A stretch of 64,000 bases of DNA, from positions 1-64,000 of the forward strand of contig JALQPE010002293.1 in assembly GCA_030407315.1 (NCBI GenBank), written 5' to 3'. The notes beneath the pieces were generated by a model, which was given only the letters and a program-made list of their open reading frames with translations, searched no databases and was not told where the DNA came from. The translations under genes were made by a program, and so were the position numbers. The first letter of the stretch is position 1. Each line of letters begins with the position of its first letter. Of the stretch, positions 33,247 through 52,930 are shown one piece after another. This DNA is from Asparagopsis taxiformis (Eukaryota; Rhodophyta; Florideophyceae; Bonnemaisoniales; Bonnemaisoniaceae).

Positions 33247-33284
33247 GTACGTGCGCGAATCTTGATCAAGATTCGCGCACGTAC
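33247..33284. repeat. 38-bp perfect palindrome
   Basis: Left arm GTACGTGCGCGAATCTTGA, right arm its exact reverse complement, no spacer. Confidence 0.95.
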
Positions 33285-33881: not shown

Positions 33882-36800
33882 ATGGAATGCAAGTATGAAG
33901 GGTGCTTCTACTACTGCGTAGATGCTTATGCGCTCGCGCTGCATGAGCGAACGTGTCGCTACCGTTTCAACCCCTCTCCCCAACATTTCAACAACGCTCG
34001 TGTCCCTGCCGTCACCCATGAGCCTGCTCGAAACGGCGACCATGATTCCCCGCAACCCAGCTCCCCAGACCCAGAATCTGGTCGTGCTTCCTCCAGCGAC
34101 TCACCCTGTGACGCTTCACTGCCACCAACCTCAACCCCCTCCCGCGCAGACCTCCTCGTGCAATCCCTCGCCGCCAGTCTCACAACCCTCGAGTACAAGG
34201 CCGGCGCTGGCCGCGTGAGCGAAGTCATCACCATCCTACAAGACCCCGCATTCTCCCTAGAAAAGTTCAACAGCGCCGTTCGCACCGTAGAAGAATGTCG
34301 CCACGTTACCGCTTCCATGGTCGAAACACATTTCCGCACCGAAGGTTACAAGAGCCACATCATTCCAGACAAAACTGGTAAGTACTCGGCACAGCTGTAC
34401 CTCCGCGACCCAGTCGACATGCTCCGCAGGCAGTTAGCACTGGCTAACGACCAAAATACTCTCTTCCACCCCTCCCCACAGACCGCCCCAGACGGCACCG
34501 CAATATTTTCTCATCCCCTACACACAGAATTCGCGAAAACGCTGCACCAGGTTACTAGACAGCGCGTGCAGCTCTCGGAAGATCCACAGGTCGTATGGGC
34601 AGAGGAAAATGATCCCACCGCTTCCTCCTTTGCCGGCCTCCTCCAAGTGTACTCCGACAAGAGCAGCACAAGCCTCAAGAGCTCCGCAATCGTCGCATAC
34701 CCCATACACGTCACACTGCTCAACTTCTCCGCCCCCCTCCGTCGCCACTGCATCCGTACCGGCCTCACCATCGTCGGGTATCTTCCGTACATTGTTAACC
34801 CTTCGTCCAACGCCTTGTTCGGTGATGAAATGCCGACAACCTCTAGTTCTGCTAGTCGCGCTCGCAAAATTGATATTCTTCATAAAGCACTCGAAAAAGT
34901 GTTTTCGTCCCTATCCACCGCGTTCTCTTCCGGGTTCCCCTGCACAGACTCCACTGCAACTGCCCGCCAATGCTTTCCCATCCTAGCCAATTATTGCTGC
35001 GACTTTCCAGAGGCCAAAGAGCTCTCATGCACTCGCAACAGCACTACCACCACACATCCCTGCCACCGCTGCTACATCCCCGCCACTCAACTTGAATCCA
35101 GCGCGCCACACCAGCCCCGCTCCCTCGATGATACACGCTCTGCACGCCAAGAGAGCGCTCAGGAGCATACAACTGCTCCGCTCGAAGCTCTCTCCCTCCT
35201 CGAACAACACTCTGTCCTCGAATCGACCGCTCTTTTACCCACCAACAGTCCCCTAGACCCCTACAACATTTTCTCCTTCGAGCCTCTGCACAATCTCCAC
35301 CTCGGCATCTCAAAGCTCATCAAACAGTGCATTGTCCACCGCCTCAGCTCCCCAGACCTCACCACCACTGCCTCCCATTCCGGGACACCTCGCACCTTCA
35401 AGAAGGTGAAAAAATCCATCCTCGCCGGCTCAAACAGCATTCTGTCCGCTATCGAACGCGACTACTACATCACCGGTCTTCATGTCGACTTCTCCAAGGG
35501 TGAGAAGGGCACCAATTTGAACGGCCTCTTCACGGAGGACGGCATACGCGGCATGCTCGCAGCCAAAGACTATCACCATGTCGACATGGTGTTCCCTTTC
35601 ATCGCAGCATTCATTGACACATGCTGTGACGAAGTAGATACAGCCCCCCTCACTTCCATCTGCACGCAATACTCTGACCTCGTCGCATGGGTCATGAAAC
35701 GCGGTCGCATCAAGCACTGGACTGCCGCCGAACTAGAAAGCCTCCAGAACTCCATTTCCTATTTCAAACAATCAATGCTCTCCACCCTCGGCCCATTCCA
35801 CACCACAGGTCTCAAAACTTTCAAGTTCCATCTTCTAGACCATCTTCCCGGTGACTTGCAGAGATATGGCGCCCTGGAACACATTGATGCAGGCCCCTAC
35901 GAACACTCGCATCTTCTGTTCAAACAGAGTTATAGGAAAACCTCTCGAAGGCGCTCCACAGCCATGGAAGAGACTATTCGCCACATGGAATTCTCCTTGG
36001 CCACTCCAACTGGTCATACCCCATCGAACACATTGGGAAACGCACGCATGATATCGCCCACAGACGGTGCAGTACTCGTTCGCGACGGATTCACCGTTGC
36101 ACTGCACGACTTTGCCTCCCTGCTGCCCGATGCAACCCTCCTCGTTGCAGATATCGACGGACAGCCCGATCCTGCCACTCTTTTGCCGCTGCACAACTCC
36201 TCGTTCCCGTCTGGCACCATAACGCTATTCCAGCAACTCGGTGACACAGCTGCACAAGCGTTCCTCACCCTCGCTAGACTGCGCGCCACGGCAGAAGGCC
36301 CTCCAATACATGACATGGACATTTCCGTCACCGTGGTAAAGTCCGCCTACGTCATGGGAGGGTACGTCCCAGATGCCGACGACTTTGACCCGCACAGTGG
36401 CATGCTTCGCCCCACAAACGTGTCGAGGCACAAGCAGCAGCGCGTCTTTGCAACTTCATCGTTCGGCCCCGCAAAGAGATCGCAGTACTCCTTTGTCGTC
36501 ATCTCCGGAACTGCCGATGACTACAGAACCATATGGGTAGGGCGCGTCCTGGCACTGGTACGCCTGCAGTCTCCAAACCTGTTTCAACCTGTAGAACTCG
36601 CTTTCGTTCAGTATATGACCTGCTTTGCCCCAAAAACCGCTGTGGAAAAATCACTTGGGTGCATTTGTTTAAAGTGGTCCACATGGGACCCGGACAACGG
36701 ATCCGTTGACAGCAATGACACTGCATCCCACAGTGCAGGTGGTCCTTGGTTTGACCTCATTCCTGCATCTACTATATCTGGCACCGTGCACATCGTACGA

Positions 36801-36920
36801 AGTAACTTTCCAGTCAAGCCATTTACGAAACAAATGCACTGGTCGGACCACCGTTTCTATCTCAACCGCTTCTACACCAACACTGATTACCAATTCACAG
36901 ATGATAATGAAGAAGAATAA
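33882..36920 (+). CDS. Large zinc-finger protein resembling a DNA-transposon transposase
   Basis: Intact 1012-residue frame from ATG 33882. A Cys3-Cys8-His21-Cys25 zinc knuckle opens the protein (MECKYEGC, then LHERTC). A disordered S/P-rich stretch follows. Near residue 467 is FEPLHNLHLGISKLIKQC, and near 650-680 is HLPGDLQRYGALEHIDAGPY with EHSHLLFKQSYRKTSRRRST. This pairing of an LH-x-LG motif with a later H-L-P ... E-H block is what I associate with Plavaka/CACTA-like transposase relatives. I cannot assign the DDE residues with certainty. Function is inferred to be transposition or a domesticated derivative. Its 3' end lies 77 bp from the end of the convergent coiled-coil gene. Confidence 0.5.
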   Translation: MECKYEGCFYYCVDAYALALHERTCRYRFNPSPQHFNNARVPAVTHEPARNGDHDSPQPSSPDPESGRASSSDSPCDASLPPTSTPSRADLLVQSLAASLTTLEYKAGAGRVSEVITILQDPAFSLEKFNSAVRTVEECRHVTASMVETHFRTEGYKSHIIPDKTGKYSAQLYLRDPVDMLRRQLALANDQNTLFHPSPQTAPDGTAIFSHPLHTEFAKTLHQVTRQRVQLSEDPQVVWAEENDPTASSFAGLLQVYSDKSSTSLKSSAIVAYPIHVTLLNFSAPLRRHCIRTGLTIVGYLPYIVNPSSNALFGDEMPTTSSSASRARKIDILHKALEKVFSSLSTAFSSGFPCTDSTATARQCFPILANYCCDFPEAKELSCTRNSTTTTHPCHRCYIPATQLESSAPHQPRSLDDTRSARQESAQEHTTAPLEALSLLEQHSVLESTALLPTNSPLDPYNIFSFEPLHNLHLGISKLIKQCIVHRLSSPDLTTTASHSGTPRTFKKVKKSILAGSNSILSAIERDYYITGLHVDFSKGEKGTNLNGLFTEDGIRGMLAAKDYHHVDMVFPFIAAFIDTCCDEVDTAPLTSICTQYSDLVAWVMKRGRIKHWTAAELESLQNSISYFKQSMLSTLGPFHTTGLKTFKFHLLDHLPGDLQRYGALEHIDAGPYEHSHLLFKQSYRKTSRRRSTAMEETIRHMEFSLATPTGHTPSNTLGNARMISPTDGAVLVRDGFTVALHDFASLLPDATLLVADIDGQPDPATLLPLHNSSFPSGTITLFQQLGDTAAQAFLTLARLRATAEGPPIHDMDISVTVVKSAYVMGGYVPDADDFDPHSGMLRPTNVSRHKQQRVFATSSFGPAKRSQYSFVVISGTADDYRTIWVGRVLALVRLQSPNLFQPVELAFVQYMTCFAPKTAVEKSLGCICLKWSTWDPDNGSVDSNDTASHSAGGPWFDLIPASTISGTVHIVRSNFPVKPFTKQMHWSDHRFYLNRFYTNTDYQFTDDNEEE

Positions 36921-36997
36921 ATCTAAATCGCAGCACTCTATTGATAATGTACTACATGATAAACCTTCTAGTCAACGTCACATTTACTGCACTAATT

Positions 36998-39283
36998 TCA
37001 ACCATCCTCCATTACGCCAAAACCGTTATCAGCAGTGGCTGCATGGCGCCGCTCCATGCCCCCATACTGTGGGGCATTGATTTCGACATTCAGGTTTGCA
37101 GTCAGGTGTCCAGCATATGGGTCAACGACGAAAAGTTCTGCGCCAATTAGTCCTTGCGCAATCACACAATCCATTACAGCACCGAGGTTTGACGTAATAT
37201 GCGATTGAATCCAATCCTCGGACACTAGAACAAGTGATGAGCAGCGGTTTACATCATCAACGACATGAACAATTCCAGACCCCTCTCCGCTTTGCCACAC
37301 TTCAACAGCCTCTCTCGTCACAGTACGGCTTGCAAACACATGCCGTGACTGTGCACTAGTCCGCTGTTCGCTCTCGACAACGTCCGTTTCTTCCCTTGCT
37401 TGCGAGCCTTGGAGACAAGACATGCAGTACACCACCATACCAACTAATTGCTGAAAAGCTACCCCCACATATTGACTGTACCGCCTTGTAAACTCCTTCT
37501 GCCGTGCACCTCCTTTCCCCTTCGGTTCATCCAAACACTCCACAGTAGTCACTAGCCAAGCATCCAGGCGCGCCAGCGTTAGTATGCTCGTCTCTATGTC
37601 CATTACTTGTTCTGGTCGTATCGAATAACCCCTGAAGATGTCCAGCACATTCACAGCTACTCGGTTGTTAAACCATGCATCACCATTCACTTCCATTTCG
37701 AAGCTGTCAGGAACCAAGCCTTTGCTGTATCGCAGCTCTGAGAACGGTGCCGTTCGCCACCTCCCCATATCCAAATCACCGTTACTTTCCCGTTTCAAAA
37801 GCTTCTCAGACGCTTCGCGCTTTTGTTCCTCTCGCTCGTCCATCTCAGCTCGCGTCGTCAGCATCGTGCATCTAGACATTAATTTCGTGTACCCCAGCGA
37901 ACCGAACAATCTGTCCCTCGCATTACGCTTCCGTGCACTCATCACGTCGGACAGTTTCTGCGTCACCTTCACTTTCAATTCCTTGCTCCCCGCCACAGCC
38001 TCTTGACAGCACACACGCTGCTCCTCATCGGAAAACACATCACACCACGGACTTTGACGCAGTACGTGTCGCACCAAGTCATTCAGCAGATCACTCTCGT
38101 CCCTGTACGAAGGTGTATACCACTGCAGATTCTTGATGATATAGCCCGGAGGGGTAGCAATATATCCTACACCGTTTTCGCTCCAAAGTGCCCCTTCTAC
38201 CGGCTCTACCTCGATGGTACGTCCAGTCCAACGTCTCTGCGTTTGTTCCGCTATAGGGTCCAGCTCCATAGTCTCGTTCTTGCACCACTTTGTCAGGTTT
38301 TCCTCAACCGCCCTAAGAACTCCAAGGTATTTCACAGGAATGGCTTTCTGTATTTTCGACTTACCGCCACCGTGATCACTGATTCTACCTGTTCTCGCAA
38401 TTGCAGTAAGGCTGGCATTTTCCGCCTGCAGAGTCTTCACCTTAGCCTCCAACGCAACAATCTCCGTGGTGAGCGCCTTGTTTGCTATGTCCTGGCTAAA
38501 CACTTTTTTTTCCAGCTCCGCGATCTTCTTCTTCTGCGCATTGATGCGACTCGCCATTAAATCGATGGATTCCGGCGGATGCAACCTCTCTGCCCTCACC
38601 GTCCCCCCATCTCCCACGCTATCGGGAATATGATGTCCTCCATCGCCAATAGCCTGACGTCGCGGGGGCGTTACGCGCATATTTGGCACCAATGACACTC
38701 TGTTGTGACGAGGCCCGCACTCCGGCTGCTCTCTCCCCTCAGTACCACCTGACCGCCGATGATAGTTGGCATCCTGTGAACGTTGCTCAGAAACAACATC
38801 CCTTGCCGCTATCCTCGGGTCCCTGACTGCATTACCTGCTGGGGCTGATGTACTCGGCATAGTTGGCGCAGTGGGGGTCACAGCCTCCAGTGTGTCGGAA
38901 GCCCCCGGCTGGGACTCCGTCTGCAGCACCTCCGCATCTGCCAACCCGGGAGGAACTACCTTTGCCATAGCACTCTGCCGCAATTCCAACATGTTTTGAG
39001 CCACTATCATGTCATCATCATGATGTTCACTGTCCCTGCGAGCACGCTTGCCTCGGTCAAGCCCCATCTCTCTCCGCGCCGTTCCTCCTTCCTCACTTTC
39101 TCGCTGCGGATCCCCAGATCTGCGCCGGTCCGTCTTGCGACTACCGGACCGCGGTTCAATGCTGCCGGTAGGCCCAGACCGCTTCTTCGCACGGGATTGT
39201 CGGGCACTCGATACAGCAGCTGCTGACCGGGTTTTCTGGAGGCCCGGAGGCTTTGGAGCTTTCTTCGCAATACGCGGCGGCAT
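36998..39283 (-). CDS. Coiled-coil protein of unknown function, accessory region
   Basis: Intact 761-residue frame from ATG 39281-39283. The first 90 residues are strongly basic (RQSRAKKRSG, LDRGKRARRD), consistent with nuclear or DNA binding. A coiled coil spans about residues 239-295 (leucine/alanine heptads in INAQKKKIAELEKKV and ALEAKVKTLQAEN). The C-terminal half is globular, with an ELKVKVTQKLSDVMSARKRN segment. I do not recognise the family. The upstream 60-70 bp (39471-39520) resemble the upstream flank of the ParB/dioxygenase genes, and an R repeat starts right after. It may therefore belong to the same mobile system, for example as a second transposition or DNA-binding protein. Confidence 0.55.
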   Translation of the reverse strand: MPPRIAKKAPKPPGLQKTRSAAAVSSARQSRAKKRSGPTGSIEPRSGSRKTDRRRSGDPQRESEEGGTARREMGLDRGKRARRDSEHHDDDMIVAQNMLELRQSAMAKVVPPGLADAEVLQTESQPGASDTLEAVTPTAPTMPSTSAPAGNAVRDPRIAARDVVSEQRSQDANYHRRSGGTEGREQPECGPRHNRVSLVPNMRVTPPRRQAIGDGGHHIPDSVGDGGTVRAERLHPPESIDLMASRINAQKKKIAELEKKVFSQDIANKALTTEIVALEAKVKTLQAENASLTAIARTGRISDHGGGKSKIQKAIPVKYLGVLRAVEENLTKWCKNETMELDPIAEQTQRRWTGRTIEVEPVEGALWSENGVGYIATPPGYIIKNLQWYTPSYRDESDLLNDLVRHVLRQSPWCDVFSDEEQRVCCQEAVAGSKELKVKVTQKLSDVMSARKRNARDRLFGSLGYTKLMSRCTMLTTRAEMDEREEQKREASEKLLKRESNGDLDMGRWRTAPFSELRYSKGLVPDSFEMEVNGDAWFNNRVAVNVLDIFRGYSIRPEQVMDIETSILTLARLDAWLVTTVECLDEPKGKGGARQKEFTRRYSQYVGVAFQQLVGMVVYCMSCLQGSQAREETDVVESEQRTSAQSRHVFASRTVTREAVEVWQSGEGSGIVHVVDDVNRCSSLVLVSEDWIQSHITSNLGAVMDCVIAQGLIGAELFVVDPYAGHLTANLNVEINAPQYGGMERRHAATADNGFGVMEDG

Positions 39284-39516
39284 AATGAAGCTTTCCCGGA
39301 AGCGATGGAACGATTGAGTTGCACGAGATACAAAAAAGATTGCTGTATAGTGTCGGTAACCACAACGGTCTGCGATGAACGTTCAGGTCAGGTCAAGTAC
39401 CGGATAATACGCCAACAGCCCAGATTGTATACGGTAGGCAGTCATCAACAGTATTTAATGAGGTACAATTACAGCTGTCGAGCTAGGCCGCGAGCACCCC
39501 TATGTCCGGAAGACGT

Positions 39517-40075
39517 CCTGATTTGAATTAAAATTTGGGCTATTCTCAAAAACATGCACATGTGAACATGTTTTTGAGATGGGGGTGTGCCGTACGGCAC
39601 AATCGACCGCCCAAATCGATGTTTTTTGCAATATTTTTTTGTGCCCGAAATTTTAGAATTTCTGGGCTGGCCAGCAATGCAATCGAGCTGGACATCCACC
39701 GGACGTCCATTTCAGGTTGGTCGTGAGAGAGCGGGGCGGGACCATGATGGAACAAGGACCAAGACCTGTCCCTGGCGTATTGAGCCTGAAATTGACCCTT
39801 CGTCAGACGCCATTTAGCCTTACAGTTGGTGCTTACAGAAGCCAGTGATGACCCCGCTCGGGGCGGCGGTCGGTTCCTGGGGCCGTTGTGGCCAAATTAG
39901 ACACCCTGATTTGAATTAAAATTTGGGCTATTCTCAAAAACATGCACATGTGAACATGTTTTTGAAATGGGGGTGTGCCGTACGGCACAATCGGCCGCCC
40001 AAATCAAGGTTTTTTACAATATTTTTGCTGCCCGAAATTCTACAATTTCTGGGCTGGCCAGTAATGCATTAGCTA
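39517..40075 (+). repeat. R repeats, two units, forward orientation
   Basis: Each unit starts CCTGATTTGAATTAAAATTT and holds, in order, a CAAAAACATG...CATGTTTTTG hairpin, the 16-bp palindrome TGTGCCGTACGGCACA (39586-39601, 39974-39989), GAAATTTTAGAATTTC, GCTGGCCAGC and TGGACATCCACCGGACGTCCA. The unit spacing is 388 bp. The second unit diverges after the 16-bp palindrome in the same way as the one at 63452. Confidence 0.92.
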
Positions 40076-40495
40076 TGTGCTCTAAACCGATTCTAACAAG
40101 CAGAAAGAATCCTCTCCTTCATGACGATGCTCTCGAATTGAGTGCAATGCAACGGACTCCCTCCAGGAGAACGACAAAGCATCGTCTTTTGCAAGACATT
40201 TTCGTACGAAAAATAATCGAAACACATATTTGACTTTAACCTAACAGCTATCGCGAGCACCGTACTCAGCTAAATTTCCTCTGTAATTTCCTTCCTCCAA
40301 CCAATCAATAGCCGCTTGGTCACAGGCTTAAAAGCCTTCCACTATTTGTCCTATCCATCGAAGAGGGTTCGATCCAGGCCTTGATGGGTGTGGAACCCGA
40401 GAACTTGAAAATGGAACATATTGCGACAGAGATGAGATGTCATTCTCTTTCGTTTACTTTTTTCTAACAAGATTCTAAACGTCTACGCAGCGGAA
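39990..40495 (+). repeat. Direct copy of 63470-64000
   Basis: About 500 bp are nearly identical to the right edge of the window in the same orientation. The copy here lacks short stretches that make hairpins in the other (around 40380 and 40388). No coding content was recognised. Confidence 0.88.
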
Positions 40496-40540
40496 CGAAC
40501 CCAATGTCGTCCGTCCGTTTTCAGCCCGGTGAGATGTTTT

Positions 40541-40870
40541 TGCCATTAACGGAGGTGGAGGCGGCTATGGAGGAAGCCTGCGGTTCGGGTATTCTTTCCA
40601 TTAACGGAGGTGGAGGTGGCGGCTTTGGAGGAAGCCTGGAGAACATGTGAGATGTCAGTACCCATGGATCACAAGAAAAACATGTAGAGGTCCAGTTTGG
40701 ATATTGTTGCCATTAACGGAGGCGGAGGAGGCGGCTACGGTGGAAGCCTGGAGAGCATGTGAGATGTCAGTACCCATGGATCACATGAAGAACATGTTGA
40801 GGTGCGGTTCGGATATTCTTTCCATTAACGGAGGCGGAGGAGGCGGCTACGGTGGAAGCCTGGAGAAGAA
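40541..40870 (+). repeat. Glycine-codon repeat, about 112 bp, four copies
   Basis: Copies begin near 40541, 40598, 40709 and 40821 with CCATTAACGGAGG. Each can encode INGGGGGGYGGSLE, and the joining sequence (ATGTGAGATGTCAGTACCC) contains stops. The first copy is shortened. It may be debris of a glycine-rich protein gene or a minisatellite. Confidence 0.75.
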
Positions 40871-41162
40871 TAGAATAGTCCTATACCCATGGATCACAAG
40901 TAGACGTAGTTGGGCTCCTTTTCGAAGCCCATTCGTCTCTTGAATAAATTTAGCACCCAAATCATATACGATTGCCGAGTTGACACCCCGTATGTCTCGT
41001 TGGTAGAAATAGCAGGGGTTCCACCACTCAGCTGGCGGGAAGTAGTTACTGATTATATGAGATATGGCTTAGCTCCCGCCAAAACCGATAGCTCTGGGCT
41101 CAGGTTCTCCAAATGTGGTTATACGAATGTGTTCTGACAATGGTAGAAGACGAATATCTGCA

Positions 41163-41350
41163 TCCTGCTTTGAATTAAAATTTGGGCTATTCTCAAAAAC
41201 ATGCACATGTGAACATGTTTTTGAGATGGGGGTGTGCCGTACGGCACAATCGACCGCCGAAATCGATGTTTTTTGCAATATTTTTTCTGCCCGAAATTGT
41301 AGAATTTCTGGGCTGGCCAGCAATGCATCTGAGTCGGACATCCCCACGTC
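41163..41350 (+). repeat. R repeat, forward, upstream of the MTase-SET gene
   Basis: A single unit with the 16-bp palindrome at 41233-41248 and the hairpin just before it. It stands in inverted orientation to the R units that follow the MTase-SET gene at 45.1 kb, so the gene is bracketed by inverted copies. Confidence 0.9.
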
Positions 41351-41678
41351 CAGTGGCCGTCCGGATGTCGCTCACCTGGTAAGCGTGAGGCACCTGTGTC
41401 AACCTATGTGACTGGCGGCCTTGCAGTACAACACTCAAAGGCAGGGAATCACAATCTTTTTAAAATTTTTTCTCTACCACGTATCCGTCACAACTTATTA
41501 CCTACACCGGTTACGGGTTTCAAGACCTTTCCAGTGCTGTGTACCCGTATACTCTGTTCCGTTCGATATCAACCAGTGTTCCTCACGAAAGAGTGCAAAC
41601 GTCACGAGATACGTCGTCAAATTTGACTGTCTCGCCGAGCGGTCGCCATCCTGTACCGAATTTTCCACTCATTCCATT

Positions 41679-44600
41679 ATGACGAATAAGCGCAGGCGCA
41701 ACAGCAATCCGATCGTTGACGACGCAACCGTGCCAATTCTGCGCGAACCCGCTAGCCCTTGGGAGGATTCTAGTGACATGGGTACACGTCGAAACGTAGG
41801 TCGCGCCGCCCGCGAAACTACTCTCGCTGGCAAAGACTTCCTCCGCCTCTTGCTGGATTTATTCGCCCACTCAAGTTTCGCAGACTTGACGGACAAGCCG
41901 GGAGGTTTCACATACGCGGACCTTGGCGCTTGGGTTGCGCAGGGCACGGAAGAACAATTTGTGGCGCTGCAAGGTCGACTCAGCATGTCCTTCAGCGGTC
42001 GTTCGAAGAATGCTGGAGTCGAGGCGGATGTTGCCGAAATCGTCATGGCAGAGATGAACGTTGAGCGAGCCAAGCAGATTGTTCGTCTGGCATTACCCAT
42101 TGCCGAGTTTTCAAGACAGGATGAGCGTATCGGGCAATGGGTTGAGCACTGCATCCTTTCTGGGATCGTGCCGCAGACCTTCCTTATTGGATGTAACATG
42201 CTTCCTTCGCCACTACAGGCGCCGCAGCGCGGGGAACCAAGCGCCTTCGTTCTTGCTCCACCGGAAACGTTCGAGGTATTGATGTATTTCCAAGCGTTGT
42301 CTATCATCCGAAATCACAACAAGAACCTGCCGCGTCGCCGAATAGGAGATGCGGCCGAAGAGGGGAACGAAGCCGCACGCGTCCCAGCCCATCGGAAAAG
42401 CACTAATCGAGCTTGTTACGTGGTTCAAGTTTTATACCATGCTTGGACCGATGTGGCCTACGCCGCAAAGTTTTCCAGCTTCGAAGAGTTGATGGCGCCG
42501 TACATCATTTTCGACAGCAGTGAGCATTGGTTTGACGTGCTCGATGAAGGTCTATTCGCACCGATGGAGCAGAAGCTAGATCTCTACCACAACAAAGCTC
42601 CCCTATCTCATCCTGATGGATATGGTGGAAAAGTAGAGACAAGAACCAGTGCGCAGCACAGTGCATTTAGGGACCTTGTGAGGAAGTTCTTCGACCGGTT
42701 GCAGTTTCTTATCGTCAACCCGGACCTGTACACCTGGCCGGAGTCCGACCGCTGGGGGGCACTGGAAATATACTTCTCAAGCGGAAATCCGGACAAGCTG
42801 CCAGCGTATTTTGACACCCTCGACGAAGACGTTATGGCTGTCCTCCGCCCGGCACCACAAGCCGCGGACGCAGAAAAGGTCCCCAAGCCGGTTGATGACA
42901 CTCCCACTCGTCGCAACACAGGAGGGAGAGGTTTGGTTCCGTCGACAAGACACACAACCAGGCTTCAACTTGGACCTGGGAGGACCAGTCTTACTGCCCA
43001 AGGGCCGTCTCCCCCGTCACCGTCACCCCATGCGACAGAAGAGCAGGAAAGTGAAGGGCAGGCTCTCGCAAAGGACTTTCTTTCGAAAATGAGTCAGTAT
43101 TGCCGGGTGTACGACGTCCCTTTCGAAGATTTGGTCAGTGCCGACGAGAGCCGAGAACACGTGCCCATCACGGGCAACGTTCAGCTCATTCTGACTGATC
43201 CGCCCTACAATGTTCGTCGTAAGAGGAACGATTCCAACTCTTCGTACGACAGGCTAACTGCAGAAGATATGCAGGCTAGCATCGAAGTGTTTGACGAGCT
43301 GTTGCGCCCCGGTGGCCACGGCATCGTGTTCTGCTCGGTTTTGCAGTTCTACGAATGGTTCCATTACTTGGAAACGTACAAAGGACCGCAGTCAGAAGGC
43401 CCAACCGATACTGCTGCCAGTGATGACGGGTCGGATGAAGAAGAGGTTACGTCCATGAATTCGGACTCCGAAGCATCGCAGCACAGTGGCGAAGAAAGTG
43501 CGGATGAGGAGGAGGACGAGGAGGAGGAGGACGTCGTTCGGAATTCAGTTTTCTTCGTTGACGAGGTACCTCTGTTGTTTGTCCGACTACCTGGGCACCT
43601 CTATCAAATGCCGGGGCGGAAGAGGTACCAACGCATGAACATGGCAGAGGTCGCTATCCACTTCTGGAAGCGAGGTGTTCCGTTCAAGACCGGAAGCGAG
43701 ATGGTGGCCTATAGGAACCACGGATACATGGACGGCACGTACCCGGCGTGGTGCAACGTCACCATCAATATGCCCGCCATCGATTCGAATGAGATGGTGT
43801 GGCGAACAAGGAGCACAACCGGTGCTACGGTCAGAGTTCGTGCAGAGCAGAAGAGCGTCGCTCTCATGATGGAGTTGATCAGCCAGCATTCACAGCCTGG
43901 TGATATTGTTGTCGATCCATTCTCTGGCACTTTCGCAACGGGAAAAGCAGCTATGAGCTTGCCTGAGCACCGTGTTTTCGTCGGCAGTGACATGGACAAA
44001 TTGTGTGTGGTACGATCGCTTCCAAAGCTGTGTGCAGTCATGTCACGTGTAATTCTTTCAAACAACACTGACATGAGGGTCACGACAGAAGCGAAACAGA
44101 GTGCTGAGAAGTTCTTGGCGTCCCCCTCTGTCACGATGCGTACGCAGAGGGAACGCAGGATCATCGAACCCCCACCTGGCCTTCCCCTGTACCAGAGGTT
44201 CCCGAAATATATTCGGCAGTACCTCTGGCAGCTGTGCCCAGAGTCGATTGCGTCGCGCGAGCACATGGAGAAACCGGTACATTATTGGCCACCTTCCCTG
44301 CGCCGCTGGTTGCAAACTGAAAACCCTCGCGTGATGCGGGCACACGATTGTGTTGCGAAAAAATTGAGCGTTCGACCATCGCTGATTAAGCATCCAAATG
44401 CAGGAAGAGGGCTCTTCGCTGAACAGACATTTAATGTTGGTGACGAAGTATGTGCATACTACGGAACTGTTGTGTACTCTGATATGAGCAAGGAGTCGAT
44501 GAGGTTCGCGTACGGAGAGGGTCACATGGCGATAACGAAGGAAACATTCTTGATGTATGCTATCAAGCTGTATGCAACAGCGGAGGACGACGAAAACATC

Positions 44601-44876
44601 GAGCATCCAATTTGGATTGTTCCGGCTCCGTTCTGTTCGGCGCAGTTCATCAACGACCCGCGGTATTTGCGAGGTGAGGACACTCCGGCGGAAGACACCA
44701 GGCGGATGGCCAACGTCGAGTTTGTCGAGAACTACAGCAGCGGTTCGACGGGGAAGAAGCTCAAGGCGAAGGACCTAGAAAATCCGAAGATCATTGTAGT
44801 ACGTGCAATCCGCGATATCCGTCCGGGGCAGGAGCTCTACGTTCATTATGGGACAGCGTTTAGAGCATGGAATTAG
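41679..44876 (+). CDS. DNA methyltransferase (N6-adenine/N4-cytosine class) fused to SET domain
   Basis: Predicted dual epigenetic enzyme, 1065 residues from ATG 41679 (the frame is open upstream but begins at TTG). The N-terminal 480 residues are not recognised. Motif IV of amino-methyltransferases is clear: LILTDPPYNVRRK with D507-P-P-Y510. A PGGHGIVFCS strand follows, and then a long acidic insert (about residues 580-620). Motif I, the SAM loop VVDPFSGTFATGKA, follows near 745. The order IV then I is the beta class of bacterial enzymes (PF01555 type). It differs from the eukaryotic MT-A70 family (DPPW). Residues about 898-1060 form a SET domain: NAGRGLFAEQTFNVGDEVCA, QFINDPRYLRG where NH is usual, ANVEFVENYS, and the closing IRPGQELYVHYG. 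DPPY favours adenine. Activities are inferred; the SET NH-to-ND change may matter. Confidence 0.82.
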   Translation: MTNKRRRNSNPIVDDATVPILREPASPWEDSSDMGTRRNVGRAARETTLAGKDFLRLLLDLFAHSSFADLTDKPGGFTYADLGAWVAQGTEEQFVALQGRLSMSFSGRSKNAGVEADVAEIVMAEMNVERAKQIVRLALPIAEFSRQDERIGQWVEHCILSGIVPQTFLIGCNMLPSPLQAPQRGEPSAFVLAPPETFEVLMYFQALSIIRNHNKNLPRRRIGDAAEEGNEAARVPAHRKSTNRACYVVQVLYHAWTDVAYAAKFSSFEELMAPYIIFDSSEHWFDVLDEGLFAPMEQKLDLYHNKAPLSHPDGYGGKVETRTSAQHSAFRDLVRKFFDRLQFLIVNPDLYTWPESDRWGALEIYFSSGNPDKLPAYFDTLDEDVMAVLRPAPQAADAEKVPKPVDDTPTRRNTGGRGLVPSTRHTTRLQLGPGRTSLTAQGPSPPSPSPHATEEQESEGQALAKDFLSKMSQYCRVYDVPFEDLVSADESREHVPITGNVQLILTDPPYNVRRKRNDSNSSYDRLTAEDMQASIEVFDELLRPGGHGIVFCSVLQFYEWFHYLETYKGPQSEGPTDTAASDDGSDEEEVTSMNSDSEASQHSGEESADEEEDEEEEDVVRNSVFFVDEVPLLFVRLPGHLYQMPGRKRYQRMNMAEVAIHFWKRGVPFKTGSEMVAYRNHGYMDGTYPAWCNVTINMPAIDSNEMVWRTRSTTGATVRVRAEQKSVALMMELISQHSQPGDIVVDPFSGTFATGKAAMSLPEHRVFVGSDMDKLCVVRSLPKLCAVMSRVILSNNTDMRVTTEAKQSAEKFLASPSVTMRTQRERRIIEPPPGLPLYQRFPKYIRQYLWQLCPESIASREHMEKPVHYWPPSLRRWLQTENPRVMRAHDCVAKKLSVRPSLIKHPNAGRGLFAEQTFNVGDEVCAYYGTVVYSDMSKESMRFAYGEGHMAITKETFLMYAIKLYATAEDDENIEHPIWIVPAPFCSAQFINDPRYLRGEDTPAEDTRRMANVEFVENYSSGSTGKKLKAKDLENPKIIVVRAIRDIRPGQELYVHYGTAFRAWN

Positions 44877-45104
44877 GGTCACGAAAGATGTTTTCATTTC
44901 GACTACAAATAAAGCTACGTTCCAGAGTTGAAGTATATCATATAATGCAGAATGTCCAGCCACCATTAGTCCAGGGTGAAACCTATTCGGCAGTACTCGC
45001 CTGTCAAAAACCAATCGTTCACACTCTAGGTGCACTTCGTCCGAGCAGTGAACCTGACTGCTTGGTTGCTGTTATGCGTGCAGATGCAAAATACAAGACC
45101 AAGT
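44877..45104. other. 3' flank of the MTase-SET gene
   Basis: Short unique sequence before the next R block. Nothing was recognised. Confidence 0.35.
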
Positions 45105-46190
45105 TGAAATGGACGCCCGGTGGATGTCCAGCTCAGTTGCATTGCTGTCCAGCCCAGAAATTCTACAATTCAGGGCAGAAAAAATATTGCAAAAAACATC
45201 GATTTCAGCGGGTCGATTGTGCCGTACGGCACACCCCCATCTCAAAAACATGTTCACATGTGCATGTTTTTGAGAATAGCCCAAATTTTAATTCAAATCA
45301 GGGTGTCTAATTTGGCCACAACGGCCCCAGGAACCGACCGCCGCCCCGAGTGGGGTTGTCACTGGCTTCTGTAAGCACTAACTGTAAGGCTAAATGGCGT
45401 CTGACAAAGGGTCAATTTCAGGCTCAATACGCCAGGGACAGGTCTTGGTCCTTGTTCCATCATGGTCCCACCCCACTCTCTCACGACCAACCTGAAATGC
45501 ACGTCCGGTGGATGTCCAGCTCGATTGCACTGCTGGCCAGCCCGGAAATTCTAAAATTTCGGGCACAAAAAAATTGTAAAAAATCAACGATTTCAGCGGG
45601 TCGTTTGTGCCGTACGGCACACCCCCATTTCAAAAACATGTTCACATGTGCATGTTTTTGAGAATAGCCCAAATTTTAATTCAAATCAGGGTGTCTAATT
45701 TGGCCACAACGGCCCCAGGAACCGGCCGCCGCCCCGAGCGGGGTCATCACTGGCTTCTGTAAGCACTAACTGTGAGGCTAAATGGCGCCGGAAGATGGGT
45801 CGATTGCAGGCTTCAAGCCTAAGTTATGCTAGGGAGAAATCTTCTTCCGTGTTTTACTCCCTCAACAGAAACACTACTCACCCATCACGTTACTCATATT
45901 CCGTGCACTTTATATTAGTAGTGAACCCGCCTGCTTAGTTGCTGCAATGCGTGGATGTAGGCAGCACACGACCAACCTGAAATGGACGTCCGGTGGATGT
46001 CCATCTCAGATGCACTGCTGGCCAGCCCAGAAATTCTAAAATTTCGGGCACAAAAAATCTTGCAAAAATCAACGATTTGGGCGGGTCGATTGTGCCGTAC
46101 GGCACACCCCCATCTCAAAAACATGTTCACATGTGCATGTTTTTGAGAATAGCCCAAATTTTAACTCAAATCAGGGTGTTCCCCGGATAA
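45105..46190 (-). repeat. R repeats, three units, reverse orientation
   Basis: Units carry the 16-bp palindrome at 45218-45233, 45606-45621 and 46091-46106 (spacing 388 and 485). Between them lie the CCGCCCCGAGCGGGGTCA hairpin and the TTGGCCACAACGGCCCCAGG segment. They match 62490-63480 in inverted order. The last unit ends about 330 bp before the start of the ParB/dioxygenase gene. Confidence 0.92.
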
Positions 46191-46523
46191 AGGGGTGCTC
46201 GCAGCCGCCCCAAAAGCCGCCTAGCTTGACAGCTGTAATTTTAACACATTACACATCAAGGACACTGCCTGCTTCACGCCACCTCGTCAGGTTTCGAGAG
46301 CCCGACTCGGGCCCGTTCTGAACGGACACTCACATCTCGATTGCCTGTCTTGCATTCCAGCGGTCACGATAGGTGTGTACCTAACAAAATTTCGGTTGTA
46401 TTGTGTTATTATTTCCAGCGATTGGCGTTCACGACCATTCTTCAACTTAACGTGAAACATACCATCCACATCACTCGAATACGTCAACGTCAACCATCTC
46501 TTTTCCTTTCCAACTCAACAACC

Positions 46524-49500
46524 ATGGCGGATACGCATTTCAGCAGTTTGTTTTCAACGGTTTGCGGCGATCAAGTGAGCGCGTCAGCGGAGTCGCGCGG
46601 ACTCAAGCGCGGCGTCGATGTCGACTTGTTTGCGGACGTGGACGGTGCGGCTGTGCATATTGGGACGGCTTCGGTGAGCACTGCTGGTGGCGATGTTGGC
46701 CTTCCGCGCACGCTGCACAACCACAAGCTGCCGGAAACCGACGAGGCCGACTATATCGTCGTGCGCAACATTGCGACTAAGGACAAGTTCAAGGACCTCC
46801 CGTTCCCGTACATGTTTGATGGCGCCGAGGGACCGCCGGAGACGATGGGTGGAGCATACGCCGCGGCGTTTTACCCTTGGGATACTCGGATGATGCGCCC
46901 CGCTGCGGAGGATGGCTCTAGCGACATTCGTACCCCTGCTGCAGCGTCAAACTTCAACGCAGCGACGAACCAGGCCAGCTCGGGACGGATGCCCAGTACC
47001 GGTCCAGCAGGCGAAATCACTGGTTCGGGGGGTACGAAGCATCCAGCACGCTCCGTCCCGGTTTCGGGAGGCACGAAGCGCCCTGCTCGCTCTGCCAGAG
47101 CCTCCAGTGGAGGCACGAAGCACCCTGCTCGCTCCAACGTCACCGAAGCTACTACGCAGGACGTAACCGAGGTGGACGACGAACCGGAGGTGGCGGAAAG
47201 CATTCGTGAGCAGCAGGGGACGCAAATTATGGTGCCCAAGTTTGTGACGTCGGATTACGTCGGAGAAGGAGCGACTGTGTTGGTGAGGCAGCTAGTGGAA
47301 CCGGCCGTGACCCTTCGCGATGTCAAAGAAGACCACGTGGAGGACCTGCGCAACAATATGTTGGCGGTGGGGTATGTGAGCTCTTCGCGTATCACTGTGA
47401 CGGTGCTGAGGTCGCAGAACACGCATTTGTCCGCCGACACGCGTCTGTTCCAGAATGGCAAATTCCATGCCAATGCGAACGTGACCGTGATCGACGGACT
47501 GCATCGTCTCAATGCTATGCATAGCATTGCGGATGACTTCACGCGCCTCACCCGTATGCACAGAACCAAGCTGCCACAGGAGGCAAACCGCTTGCGCTGG
47601 GTTACTCAGCCTCTGGATGTGTACTACCTTCGCCGCAAGGACGACAGTGATCTCCAGCCTCATGAGATCATCCACAAGAGTGCAGAGTCGAACCATACGA
47701 CTGGGACGCAACTGACGGAGCGCTCCCTGGTTCGAATCTTGTCGTCCATCCAGCAGTTCATCCGTACGATTGCTGTTGCAAACAACGTGGAAAACGCTGG
47801 CGACTTGCGTGAGTCTGATGTCATCCGAACATTGTTCGAGGCGCAGTTCATGGGGATGATGAATTCGACGAACACGGCTCGGCGGTGGACGCGTTTGGCT
47901 ATAGCAACGCTGAAGCATCCTGTTCTCGACGACGTGTTGCGTGAGCTGAACAATTCCGAGCGCCGCAACGAGATTGGGATAACGCACCTGGACCACAAGA
48001 TAGTGCGCGAGTTGCTGGAAGAAAACTTTGTCTTCGTCTTGCGTGGTCTTTCGGAGTACTTGAACCCTGCTCATGGCGGACGTCCGGATGGACGCTTTGA
48101 CGTGAACGACTTTTATACATACGTCCGTCGCGTGACTGCAATAGCAAATTCTCTGTACGCTGCGTTTGGGCGCCCAAAGAGTATTATGCGCAAGTCATTT
48201 CTGAGCACAGAGATGGCAATTGGGTCGGTTAAGCAGCCGAAGGAGTTGCAATGGCATCTCACCAATGCCATTGCAATGTATAGAGGGGACGACCGGAGCA
48301 GTGAGGTTCGAATGCGACGGAGAACCACGCGTTTACAGGATTTGGAAACGAACTTGAAAGAGTTTTTCAATCCGACATTGAAGAAGAAGACTAAGGCTCG
48401 ACGCAAACGCCGCCCTTCTGCTGCCAATGTGAGACTCACTCACAAGAAGCAGCGGAATGTCGAACATGAGCCTGCTTCGCATGGCATCCGCCGCCGTTCA
48501 CAGCGACTTCGCTCGACGGGGAGCACACGCCTCGAGGAAGAAGAGCCGGTTGTGGTACAACAATCCGCCGGGGAAGAAGAGCAGGCCGTTGTTGATAAAC
48601 CCACCGATCAACAACAAGCCACTGCTTCCGGTGATGAGGTTGACGAAGACTCCGCCCGTTCCCCCGATTCTGCCGTTGAGATTGTCCCCCAAGATAACCA
48701 ACGTGCTGGTGCGACTCCCTCCAACCAAGAATCTGTCCATACCGCTTCGGACGAGGAAGACAAACAGGGTGCAGACGAGGGCCAAGTCGAAAGCAAGGGG
48801 GTCCGCGAAGTGACAATTACATTCACTGTTCCGGAAGGAGTGGAAGTCGATGAAGACGGTTACATCGTTCGTGACTCTCCTTCTGAAGACGACCTCCTCT
48901 TCGACGACCGTATGCCGTCTCTTCCTGACGATTTCGAAGACCGAGCCGAAGGGCATCATCTGGCGCAGCGTCCCGCGGATGTCATCGCATCGGTGAGGGT
49001 TGGCTGTCTGCCCCCGATTGAGCTCAGGTTGTTATTGGAGAGTGTGGAAATCGATGAGGAGGGCAGAGAGGTGAGGTATTTGAAGCAAGTGGCGATGGAC
49101 CCTGTGTTTGAGGGGCTGCATATTCCGGAAGAACATCGGGCTCGTGTGCTATTCGAAATCGATCACGTCTATCCGATGTTCTTCGCAGCGTGGAAGATGG
49201 CTGCCAAGGCGATGTGTGAGCCTACATCGACGTTTCTACCCTCGAGGCTGGACTTCGCCCAGGTTGCGCGAATGTCTACAAGCTGGAAGGATTCGTATGA
49301 GGCCGGCACTGGTATGGCGTACTTCCACAATTGCCGAACGGAAATCAACGAGCGAGGGTATACGGTGATGCACAATTTCGCGGATGTAAGCTACCTCGAT
49401 GCGTCGGACAAGTTCCCATTTGACTTGGGTCTCATGGAAGAAATTCCTAACCAGGAATTGTTTCGGTACTTCTTGGGAACATGGGAGGGGGAGCAGGTGC

Positions 49501-50456
49501 ACAAGGACCCTGGGAACCGGCAGCTGTGGAGTCCCATTGTCAATACAGGGGACGATGAAACAGATGAGAAGAACCGGAATGAGGGGAGGGCTCGCTTCAC
49601 GTCTACGCGCCACTGCCTGGTTGACTATGCAGAGAACGACGAGACGCATATCGACCGGTTCAAGTTTGTGACGCGGCGAGCCCTGCTGGATGTGTGGTTG
49701 GGAATCCTTGTCCGGCTGATAGGGCTGGAGGAGTGCGGTTTACCGGGAGAAAAACTTGTCATGCCGGCATCTGGGGGACGGTTTTTGATAACGGGAAAGG
49801 GGTGTCCTCGGCAGGTCCCACACAATGATTTCCCTGTTCCTCCTCGCGACCGCAAAGATCAACTTCCGGGTTACTTTGTTATTGCCAACGGAGATGACCC
49901 ATTCCCTATCTGGGTGTGTCCAGGGTCCCACAAGTACGTCTTTTCCAAAGCGCTGGAATTAGATATGTACGCCAAGACGATGAAGCTGAAGAAGGTAATC
50001 GTTCCGCCACGTTCAGTCTTCATCGGTCACGGCCATGTACAACATGCCGGGGCAGGGCATGTCGACAGAGTTGTGTCACACACGACAACGAGGTATCACA
50101 CGTATTTCAGGAATGCGTCGTATCCGATTCCCGACAATGTTTCGTTTGGTTTCATCAGGCGGTTGGGATTCGAAGAAGAAGTCATCGCCAATGCTCCGCG
50201 CCGGTCTGCAAGGCAAAGTCAACCGGCACCTGTCAATGTTCGCCACAAGACAGTTGTTCCCATCCCGGTCAAGAAAGATGGTAGGCCGAAGACAGGGCAG
50301 CTCCGAATGATGCGGATGAAGACGACAGAACCTCGCAAGGATGTAATGCACACACCGAGTGTGGCCCCGGTAGTGCCTCTTCTGCCGGGACAACCTGGAT
50401 ATCTAGTTCACTATCATAGTGAGGACGAAGAGGAAGAACAGTTTTCCGACGGCTAG
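46524..50456 (+). CDS. ParB-like / 2OG-Fe(II) dioxygenase-like fusion protein, intact copy
   Basis: 1310 residues from ATG 46524 (context CAACCATGG). After a region with SGGTKHPAR-type repeats, residues about 250-400 resemble the ParB/sulfiredoxin-type domain: an LRDVKEDHVEDLRNNML helix and the signature TVIDGLHRLNAM (V322-R328 region). A helical region follows. A basic, disordered linker holds KKKTKARRKRRP. Residues about 950-1230 look like a PhyH-type double-stranded beta helix: RGYTVMHNF, VPHNDF with H1100 and D1102 as iron ligands, IWVCPGSHKYVF, HVQHAGAG with H1174, and TTRYHTYF with R1190 in the 2-oxoglutarate position. The tail is acidic (EDEEEEQFSDG). DNA or chromatin demodification is a plausible role, but the substrate is inference. 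Flanked on both sides by R repeats. Confidence 0.75.
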   Translation: MADTHFSSLFSTVCGDQVSASAESRGLKRGVDVDLFADVDGAAVHIGTASVSTAGGDVGLPRTLHNHKLPETDEADYIVVRNIATKDKFKDLPFPYMFDGAEGPPETMGGAYAAAFYPWDTRMMRPAAEDGSSDIRTPAAASNFNAATNQASSGRMPSTGPAGEITGSGGTKHPARSVPVSGGTKRPARSARASSGGTKHPARSNVTEATTQDVTEVDDEPEVAESIREQQGTQIMVPKFVTSDYVGEGATVLVRQLVEPAVTLRDVKEDHVEDLRNNMLAVGYVSSSRITVTVLRSQNTHLSADTRLFQNGKFHANANVTVIDGLHRLNAMHSIADDFTRLTRMHRTKLPQEANRLRWVTQPLDVYYLRRKDDSDLQPHEIIHKSAESNHTTGTQLTERSLVRILSSIQQFIRTIAVANNVENAGDLRESDVIRTLFEAQFMGMMNSTNTARRWTRLAIATLKHPVLDDVLRELNNSERRNEIGITHLDHKIVRELLEENFVFVLRGLSEYLNPAHGGRPDGRFDVNDFYTYVRRVTAIANSLYAAFGRPKSIMRKSFLSTEMAIGSVKQPKELQWHLTNAIAMYRGDDRSSEVRMRRRTTRLQDLETNLKEFFNPTLKKKTKARRKRRPSAANVRLTHKKQRNVEHEPASHGIRRRSQRLRSTGSTRLEEEEPVVVQQSAGEEEQAVVDKPTDQQQATASGDEVDEDSARSPDSAVEIVPQDNQRAGATPSNQESVHTASDEEDKQGADEGQVESKGVREVTITFTVPEGVEVDEDGYIVRDSPSEDDLLFDDRMPSLPDDFEDRAEGHHLAQRPADVIASVRVGCLPPIELRLLLESVEIDEEGREVRYLKQVAMDPVFEGLHIPEEHRARVLFEIDHVYPMFFAAWKMAAKAMCEPTSTFLPSRLDFAQVARMSTSWKDSYEAGTGMAYFHNCRTEINERGYTVMHNFADVSYLDASDKFPFDLGLMEEIPNQELFRYFLGTWEGEQVHKDPGNRQLWSPIVNTGDDETDEKNRNEGRARFTSTRHCLVDYAENDETHIDRFKFVTRRALLDVWLGILVRLIGLEECGLPGEKLVMPASGGRFLITGKGCPRQVPHNDFPVPPRDRKDQLPGYFVIANGDDPFPIWVCPGSHKYVFSKALELDMYAKTMKLKKVIVPPRSVFIGHGHVQHAGAGHVDRVVSHTTTRYHTYFRNASYPIPDNVSFGFIRRLGFEEEVIANAPRRSARQSQPAPVNVRHKTVVPIPVKKDGRPKTGQLRMMRMKTTEPRKDVMHTPSVAPVVPLLPGQPGYLVHYHSEDEEEEQFSDG

Positions 50457-50734
50457 ATATCTTAACAACAACTACTTTAGCAAACAATTATCGAGAATAT
50501 AATCATCTCCTTTATCACTTTCAATCTATGAACCTACTATAATGCACTTCCGTTCCATGCTTTCAAACTAGATTGTCCATTCCCTAGTGGGTTGGAGCAT
50601 GATTCCAGGACGATTCCCTCACATCTCTAGACTCGATGGTCTATGCTAGAAATAGCAGAACAATTGGGTTTATACGTGCTTCATCGCCAACTTGCTTCTG
50701 GTAATGGCTGGACGTGCACGATACACGATCACCT
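50457..50734. other. 3' flank of the ParB/dioxygenase gene
   Basis: AT-rich, conserved in inverted form at about 57870-58130 of the other arm. Likely the 3' untranslated region. Confidence 0.4.
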
Positions 50735-51640
50735 GAAATGGACGTCCGGTGGATGTCCAACTCAGATGCATTCCTGGCCGGCCCAGAAATTCTACAATTT
50801 CGGGCACAAAAAAATATTGCAAAAAACATCGATTTGGGCGGTCGATTGTGCCGTACGGCACACCCCCATCTCAAAAACATGTTCACATGTGCATGTTTTT
50901 GAGAATAGCCCAAATTTTAATTCAAATCAGGGTGTCTAATTTGGCCACAACGGCCCCAGGCACCGGCCACCGGCCCCGATCGGGGCTATCACTGGCTTCT
51001 GTAAGCACCAACTGTAAGGCTAAATGGCGTCTGACGAAGGGTCAATTTCAGGCTCAATACGCCAGGGACAGGTCTTGGTCCTTGTTCCATCATGGTCCCG
51101 CCCCGCTCTCTCACGACCAACCTGAAATGGACGTCCGGTGGATGTCCAGCTCGATTGCACTGCTGGCCAGCCCGGAAATTCTAAAATTTCGGGCACAAAA
51201 AAATTGTAAAAAATCAACGATTTCAGCGGGTCGTTTGTGCCGTACGGCACACCCCCATCTCAAAAACATGTTCACATGTGCATGTTTTTGAGAATAGCCC
51301 AAATTTTAATTCAAATCAGGGTGTCTAATTTGGCCACAACGGCCCCAGGAACCGACCGCCGGCCCCGATCGGGGGCTATCACTGGCGTCTGTAAGCACCA
51401 ACTGTAAGCCGGAGCCGGCTGCCGCCCCGATCGGGGCTATCACTGGCTTCTATTAGCACCAACTGTAAGCCAAAATCGCGTCTCACGAAGGGTCGATTTC
51501 AGGCTCAACACGTCAGGGAAAGGTCTTGGTCCTTGTTTCATCATGGTCCCGCCCCACCCTCTCGCGACCAACCTGAAATGGACGTCCGGTGGATGTCCAG
51601 CTCGATTGCATTGCTGGCCAGCCCAGAAATTCTAAAATTT
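50735..51640 (-). repeat. R repeats, two full units and one partial, reverse orientation
   Basis: 16-bp palindromes at 50847-50862 and 51236-51251 (389 bp apart). The third unit is truncated after AATTCTAAAATTT at about 51640. The intervening GCCCCGATCGGGGC hairpin occurs twice, with variants. Confidence 0.9.
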
Positions 51641-52930
51641 CCGAAAAATCAATTTGGTGGCCCAGCATCTCCTGTGCCGAAAATTCCCGCACTCAGTTCT
51701 GATATACGTCTAGACGTGTTTCCCACTTGTACGCATCAGGGAAGGCGTCACGGAAGGTTGACACTACGCTACTTGTGTACCGCGTCGTCTGAAATAGCGA
51801 GTAGTGTTTGTTGTATAGTTGTGGAGTATGCGTCTAGTGGTTTGTAAAGCTTGCAGAACGGGATAGGGATGTGGGTGGCCCTATTTTATGAATACATGAG
51901 TACCAATATTCAGGGTTGACAAAGCGGAAAGGCATAGGCTCATACATGTTTGAGATTGCATAGTAGAGAAAATATTTTCATCGAAATTTACATGGAGCTG
52001 ATGGAGGTTTTAAGGATGAGGTATGAGAGGAAGAAAATTCTTCTGTGGTATGAGGATGTGTTCTGTGGGGGGATGGAATCTTGGGATGGTACAGGGGGAG
52101 GTGGAAATGTACGGAGTGCGGGTTTAGAATGGATTGTGATTCGGAGAGGAGTGCCGACAAGCATATTATGGGGATTGGGGAGACGCTGCGGGGTGTTGGG
52201 GTAGTGAGGGCGGAGGAGGTGTTTAGGTGGGACCGTAGGAGGGTGCGGTTGAAGGCGCCGAGAGGAGGGGTTTTTAGGAAAGTGAGGAGAAAGAAGGGGA
52301 GGGGGTGGCGTCTGTTCTGGCTGTGGTGAGTGGGGATGTGATGGAGAAGAAGGGGGTTATTGTATTTGGGGAGGGAGGGGAGTGGGAGGAAGGGTGCGAA
52401 GTGGGGGTTGATATGTGTTTCAGAGCGGGGAGGTTTCTGGGGAGACGGCGGGGGAGCGGGAGCGTGGGCCGGTGGTGGTGGTGTATACGGTATCGAAGAT
52501 GCGGATGGCGTGGGGGCATGGAGCAGCTGAGGGAGGGAGGGGTGGAGCAGGTCGGGTACGGGATGGGGAGTGAGAGGTTTTGGAAGAGTAAGCTGCAGGG
52601 GAAGTTTGTGTAGAGGGCGAAGGAGAGGGGTTGAGGGTAGAGGAGAGAGGGTACTGAAGAACAATACGTTTCAAAGGTGATGGGGGAGAGCATGGTCGAG
52701 GAGATAGGGGGTGTTTTGCCCTATTCTGAGGTAGTATGAGGACTGGTTATACGAAATCTGTACGGTAGAGCAGAAAAGTAGGTATGGAATGGAGGTGTGC
52801 ACCGTGGAAGCGGGGATAGGTATCTGAAAATGCGTGCTAGAGTGGTATTGGGGGTGTTTGAGGTACAGTACGGGGGAGGTGAGCACCAACAGGAAGGGGG
52901 TGTGAGCGAGAGGATGAAAAAATTAAAGAC
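51641..52930. other. Strand-asymmetric G-rich stretch (C-rich on the minus strand)
   Basis: Open frames occur in all three minus frames and are P/S/T/H-rich, as expected from composition. A conserved ATG context (ATCTCCTCGACCATG, near 52693 and mirrored at 56329) could start a P-rich protein, and the plus strand holds WKCTECGF with a following CDSERSADKH. Neither is convincing as a gene. The segment is mirrored at about 56090-57360. Confidence 0.35.

Follow-up and report, generated by a model that had tools for sequence, protein, structure and literature searches.

We analysed a 64,000-nucleotide stretch of Asparagopsis taxiformis DNA (contig JALQPE010002293.1, positions 1 to 64,000; hereafter the window), in which a single intact gene joins an amino-methyltransferase (MTase) domain to a SET domain. 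Its reading frame is open from 41412 to a stop ending at 44876, with the first ATG at 41679. The gene sits inside a complete Plavaka-type DNA transposon, together with genes for a transposase, for a second protein with weak coiled-coil-type matches and for a protein with the signature of an oxygenase (Table 1). The earlier note on this DNA had spoken of a eukaryotic repeat island, which was correct but understated, as one and the same 22-kb DNA transposon is present in it twice.

Table 1. Positions of the features described in the text (aa, amino acids; 2OG, 2-oxoglutarate)
Feature	Position	Strand	Remarks
MTase-SET fusion protein	41679..44876	+	1065 aa, intact frame without stop
Conserved N-terminal domain, mostly helical	41820..42848	+	residues 48-390; alignment and model
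N6/N4 amino-MTase domain	43179..44000	+	residues 501-774; order DPPY then DPFSGT; PF01555
SET domain	44403..44852	+	residues 909-1058; PF00856 and structure comparison
Repeat left of MTase-SET module	39511..40068	+	~388-bp unit; inverted relative to 45138-45696
Repeat right of MTase-SET module	45138..45696	-	inverted relative to 39511-40068, 93%
Complete giant DNA transposon, copy 1	30954..53274	+	22,321 bp; shared ends and empty site
Target-site duplication CA, left	30952..30953	.	
Target-site duplication CA, right	53275..53276	.	
Left terminal inverted repeat	30954..31000	+	41/47 bases match right repeat
Right terminal inverted repeat	53228..53274	-	
43-bp tandem array near left end	31079..31602	.	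12 copies
Diverged repeats inside left end	32175..33211	.	
Plavaka-type transposase	33882..36920	+	1012 aa; PF18759 1.6e-24, 87.2 bits against cut-off 26.3
761-aa protein	36998..39283	-	weak coiled-coil-type matches at ~residues 240-295, none above cut-off
ParB-like and 2OG-Fe(II) dioxygenase-signature frame	46341..50456	+	1371 codons; motifs by eye
ParB-like stretch (TLRDV...VIDGLHR)	47295..47519	+	residues 319-393; absent from 1/4 aligned proteins (968-aa frame of contig C436)
Dioxygenase signature	49821..50099	+	HxD (H1161, D1163), H1235, R1251, H1253; invariant in 4/4 aligned proteins
MULE half of target gene split by copy 1	27880..30951	-	
Ulp1-protease-like half of target gene	53277..54264	-	motif by eye; no Pfam match
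Second transposon copy, inverted, past window end	55749..64000	-	MTase-SET module flipped

The MTase-SET protein, its relatives and a companion gene

The MTase part had been described in the earlier note as a beta-class enzyme distinct from MT-A70, carried on one 1065-residue frame that ends in a SET domain, and both statements held. PF01555 (N6_N4_Mtase) matches the protein with 56.8 bits against a curated cut-off of 26.7 (~4e-15), and PF00856 (SET) with 29.5 bits against 22.4 (1e-6). The catalytic motif DPPY (residues 507-510) precedes motif I for S-adenosylmethionine (SAM), found in VVDPFSGTF (744-752; DPFSGT at 746-751). In a family profile the two stretches align with the matching parts of DpnA, CcrM and two further solved MTases, and the motif order is shared with DpnA and CcrM; the DPPY stretch taken alone aligns weakly to solved MTases. 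DPPY also fits the catalytic tetrapeptide [DNS]PP[YFW], the variants being those given in PMC8885841. By motif order and profile match, the domain is classed as a bacterial-type, beta-order N6/N4 amino-MTase and not as MT-A70. At the other end of the protein, a structure model built from 8 sequences matches SET structures at its C-terminus, supporting a SET fold; the nearest solved structures are SET enzymes with histone substrates, in comparison rows that span residues 835-1065 and barely sample other parts, and SET proteins ranked first in a viral fold search. The N-terminal domain is modelled with a predicted local distance difference test score (pLDDT) mostly of 60-90, low at 102-128, 171-186 and 218-232. 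A Pfam search at E 1 found no chromodomain in the protein.

When 5.8 billion proteins were searched and 7999 candidates scored, one close relative (P0001, 98% identity, 13 members) and six distant ones at 27-33% identity came to light. All six distant relatives align over both the MTase and the SET domain, so that homologues of the kind the earlier note proposed looking for do exist and the fusion represents an old family. Precomputed annotation places PF01555 in all seven relatives and SET in five (P0004 and P0006 are without it); by alignment SET-type sequence is visible in all seven, the C-terminus of P0004 being cut short, and in a Pfam search of the aligned proteins at E 0.1 PF01555 is found in 8/8 and SET in 7/8. 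The N-terminal domain is partly or wholly absent in P0004 and P0007. An acidic run at about residues 576-624, for which a role in chromatin contact had been proposed, varies in length among relatives and is short or absent in some; the idea of a conserved chromatin contact was rejected on this ground. The family may be larger, as a profile search with alignment A1 listed only P0001 though A1 holds more members; a scan of genome contigs with A1 gave no relatives in 56 stretches. A single-sequence scan of viral contigs gave no match. The family scan gave 78 viral loci from 597 stretches, which match the MTase part alone and hold no SET or N-terminal domain match better than E 0.69, and a scan with the SET tail was confirmed in 0 of 16 stretches. 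The best PHROG match of the MTase domain is PHROG 67 (8.1e-17). Phage DNA methyltransferase families such as this one are alike in the MTase domain and differ in that no SET match better than E 0.69 is found in the 78 related viral loci.

Next to the MTase-SET gene lies a 1371-codon frame. The series HxD ... H ... R is the signature of 2OG-Fe(II) dioxygenases, and its residues in this frame are kept in a database relative (P0012) and in two frames of contig C436. P0012 is 34% identical over the whole alignment (BLASTP, 27% over 29% of the query). In a tblastn comparison the 968-aa C436 frame aligns to the window protein (24.6%, 5.9e-9), and the 1253-aa C436 frame matches the 968-aa frame at 36% over 282 columns. 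None of the four aligned proteins, the 1371-codon frame included, has a Pfam match above cut-off, the model of the window protein has a pLDDT of 30.6, and a viral scan with the oxygenase pair gave 0 of 92.

Sister families of the MTase-SET gene lie on other contigs. The best 150 of 2605 PF01555 candidates in the genome fall into several size classes (about 1186, 1106, 943 and 701-999 aa), the most frequent amino-MTase frame being 1186 aa long, with one readable copy (L100). This sister has PF01555 (2.4e-16), SET (4.3e-6) and an N-terminal ParB-like stretch that resembles that of the window oxygenase protein (E 0.049, a single comparison). The ParB-like part thus accompanies the oxygenase in the transposon of the window, and in the sister it is fused to MTase-SET. 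On C436 (185001-205000) two MTase-SET relatives adjoin the 968- and 1253-aa dioxygenase-signature frames; the first relative, at 26.6% identity and with no frame above 328 aa, is probably broken, and the second is the intact 1186-aa sister. MTase-SET and oxygenase-signature genes are therefore paired in three divergent settings of the genome. The two relatives and two frames of C436 lie within 186000-203400 (L099, L100), where inverted repeats flank the 1253-aa frame. A stretch bearing on the 943-aa class (L118) holds no closed frame of at least 250 aa, frames running off the stretch not being counted.

The MTase-SET gene of the window and another copy (L117) differ at 12 synonymous sites and 8 nonsynonymous ones (omega 0.19, p 3.4e-4), and L117 and a further copy (L116) at 11 and 8 (omega 0.21). 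Both copies were drawn from matches ordered by protein score, and such a choice tends to keep nonsynonymous counts low. The window and L116 differ by 1 synonymous and 2 nonsynonymous changes, too few to judge. Between the two oxygenase genes of the window there are 24 synonymous and 30 nonsynonymous codon differences (p 8e-4 with an assumed neutral share of 0.76).

Mobility and recent spread of the element

To place the borders of the element we compared the window with stretches of five contigs (C436, C110, C476, C787 and C426). The left end (30954) lies at the same point in C436 and C110, where the end falls in the stretch, and the right end (53274) at the same point in C436, C476, C787 and C426, the match in C787 running 6 bases into the flank. 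Both ends are seen only in C436 (158330 to 181715). The terminal sequence CGTCTGTGTTyTCGG is inverted (CGTCTG..CAGACG), and the two copies for which both ends are covered have 2-bp direct repeats just outside them: CA for the window copy, TA for C436. Plavaka is defined by a target duplication of 2 or 3 bp (PMC12730594), and the duplications found here fall within that definition. Joining the window flanks minus one CA yields a 1354-aa open frame, and the joined sequence crosses the junction in L089 at 99.8% (2636 columns) and in L088 and L090 at 99.0%. The empty site is unbroken across the junction, indicating that the 22,321-bp element inserted into a Ulp1-like/MULE gene. MULE was rejected as the mobilising transposase, as it belongs to the target gene and lies outside the termini. 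Codon usage had raised the suspicion that the Plavaka transposase is an unrelated neighbour; the shared termini overruled this. The target gene's 396-aa frame has 105 scored matches among 1837 candidates in the genome, some of which cover the last residues only, that is, the end of the giant element, and facing pairs of such matches lie about 6 kb apart on several contigs, e.g. C1725.

The element has spread recently. In the genome searched (G000, 141.5 Mb, 3156 contigs, which may include allelic duplicates) at least 43 further full-length MTase-SET copies lie on 43 contigs, encoding a 100% identical protein without a stop; they are the best 43 of 4133 candidates, and the set is therefore biased to identity and lacks the window's own copy. 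The P0005 search gave 42 contigs (the best 42 of 3145 candidates), of which 19 were new and 2 of these carry a stop. Read at the DNA level, seven of nine other copies are identical to the window; L082 departs from it at 2 sites and L084 at 4, and every one of these changes is synonymous. A 34-bp terminal pattern with at most one mismatch has 1336 + 1353 = 2689 matches in the genome and none for the reversed control. These identical intact copies and very many ends are what point to recent spread. Nine hand-picked facing end pairs among 100 listed places are 10.0 to 20.8 kb apart, suggesting that many copies may be shorter than that of the window. A chance frame or an assembly artefact as the source of the fusion was ruled out by the distant relatives and the many copies.

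The MTase-SET module, flanked by inverted repeats, occurs in both orientations. Seven of 11 copies show the order of window copy 1 (copy 1 itself, L080, L081, L083, L085, L086 and C787). In three the gene is turned round or adjoins the other neighbour (L082, L084 and window copy 2), and one (L079) is not settled. Two copies show inversion of the full module, that of C426 (to which L082 belongs) and window copy 2; L084 was read on one flank only. Contig C476 is rearranged internally, with the transposase half inverted. Recombination between the inverted repeats would explain the module inversion, and assembly error is a possible source of it. A frameshift interrupts the MTase-SET frame of copy 2, and another its oxygenase frame.

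Possible function and alternatives

The transposon thus seems to carry enzymes of its own for marking both DNA and chromatin proteins. The MTase-SET gene is cargo of a Plavaka-type transposon, and we consider it reasonably probable that its product marks DNA and chromatin, most likely to the benefit of the element. Judging by its family, the beta-order domain would add N6-methyladenine (6mA), or N4-methylcytosine (4mC), to DNA, and the SET domain, by the same kind of knowledge, would methylate lysine in a histone or other protein on the same chromatin; it is possible that one protein writes two marks. The ParB-like/oxygenase protein would probably act on the same substrate, reading, removing or, presumably by oxidation, further modifying the mark. 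More speculatively, an element that marks its own DNA and chromatin could escape host silencing or be recognised by its own transposase. We give little credence to a portable epigenetic cassette, in which a dual DNA/protein writer and a ParB-like oxygenase acting as reader or remover would be combined with an invertible module as a possible orientation switch.

Several points weigh against reading the protein as a writer of both marks in the service of the element. The direction in which the predicted marks would act is one that we infer, the 1371-codon frame is read as a 2OG-Fe(II) dioxygenase from motifs only, and the identical copies were chosen by score. Codon usage provides no tie between the transposase and the MTase-SET gene (0.24, versus 0.83 for the transposase and Copia). 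In the structure model the mean pLDDT is 52, and the prediction called for in the earlier note, successful for the SET fold, leaves the MTase part at low confidence, with residues 391-725 below 50. Residues N992-D993 (ND) stand at the position of the NH motif, a departure from the canonical NHS type. The NH of an NHxC-type motif is usual in SET lysine methyltransferases, and PR/SET proteins likewise vary at it. By sequence, the protein is therefore classed as a SET-domain protein and not as a canonical NHS-type SET lysine methyltransferase.

The catalytic tetrapeptide also bears on the reading, as it is degenerate in four of nine family members (P0003 to P0006 with DPPQ, YPPY, APPQ and DPPL), whereas YxG, ND and R of the SET domain do not vary across the family. 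Such a pattern would be expected if the MTase domain served chiefly for targeting, by binding DNA or SAM, and SET alone were catalytic in the family; we think this unlikely, because the window protein, P0001 and P0002 keep DPPY, P0007 and the L100 sister keep DPPF (5/9 canonical), and the SAM loop F.GT is retained in all aligned proteins. About equally doubtful is self-restraint, in which copies of the element would receive repressive marks from the protein, on DNA and on histones, and copy number would be limited in this way. Transposons are marked by the bdelloid N4CMT, a bacterial amino-MTase with a chromodomain that correlates with silent chromatin (PMC8885841), and a high copy number would make self-limitation useful; the intact identical copies and very many ends, however, indicate recent spread, and for this reason we rank benefit to the element above self-restraint. 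Somewhat less likely again is a role as transposition co-factor, SET acting on the transposase or another element protein and the MTase marking the ends as transposase substrate: the same element encodes a transposase and a coiled-coil protein, and the histone-substrate enzymes nearest to the SET part speak against it, weakly either way. That the locus is the remnant of an integrated large DNA virus is very improbable, for although large viruses hold SET and amino-MTase genes and protist genomes can contain insertions of giant viruses (PMC11244446), the inverted termini, 2-bp target duplication, empty site and Plavaka transposase argue for a transposon, the 78 related viral loci have no SET or N-terminal match better than E 0.69, and no capsid or viral polymerase was found in the 20 window frames scanned with Pfam, a part of all frames.

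Capture of a TET/JBP or SET gene by a transposon has precedents. TET/JBP dioxygenase genes occur in fungal Plavaka and other DNA transposons (Kojima 2025, PMC12730594), and the present element resembles fungal Plavaka in its transposase, its 2-bp target duplications and the presence of a passenger epigenetic enzyme. It differs in its passengers, an amino-MTase-SET fusion and a ParB-like/2OG-signature protein, and in its 22-kb length, and its termini fit neither PlavakaA (TGT..ACA) nor PlavakaB (CATCA..TGATG). The same source mentions SET genes in the HarbingerS and MuDR transposons of Phytophthora, which are likewise DNA transposons carrying a SET gene but belong to other transposase superfamilies; the passage that names them makes no mention of a DNA-MTase fusion. 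Like the bdelloid enzyme (PMC8885841), the MTase here is a permuted amino-MTase that a eukaryote acquired from bacteria and that is joined to a chromatin domain; N4CMT, however, is a host gene with SPPY and a chromodomain reader, whereas DPPY, a predicted SET writer and a transposon gene are found here. The giant repeats of Amoebidium (PMC11244446) share very large size, intron-poor genes and a Plavaka transposase, and their only database matches come from remote lineages, red algae or dinoflagellates among them; they are described with tyrosine recombinases, and MTase-SET goes unmentioned in the passages on them.

Among the titles and opening lines of abstracts listed by searches of the open-access literature we found no amino-MTase-SET fusion in a transposon, and an earlier description is possible. 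Within these searches we met no account of a bacterial-type amino-MTase joined to SET in one protein and borne by a giant element with more than 2600 end matches in one genome. If the reading as a portable epigenetic cassette is true, a dual writer on DNA and histones has spread as a selfish element and been amplified in an algal genome. With the element one can ask, in a natural setting, whether a eukaryote writes 6mA or 4mC deliberately and whether DNA marking and histone marking are coupled by transposons; this contested question becomes directly testable, since expression of the protein is feasible and long reads would reveal the marks.

Genome surroundings

Within window positions 16042-26222 a Copia element (16352-25750 region) is nested in sequence that has another copy at 54355-55125. 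The latter adjoins a tail that by eye resembles Copia RNase H (55072-55680), and the second copy of the giant element has inserted next to this tail. Of the 13 genomic matches to PF00502 (phycobilisome), 11 fall on contig C469, and among 14 control genomes only Synechococcus was positive. Taken by themselves, these matches are most simply read as those of a red alga, a glaucophyte being a less simple alternative. C469 is probably a plastid contig; two of its phycobiliprotein matches have identical scores and lie 177,170 bases apart, which may represent the overlap of a circular plastid genome. Elsewhere in the window, at 8465-11524 and 12950-16012, long intronless frames encode by Pfam an Nrap-type protein and a Patched/sterol-sensing-type protein.

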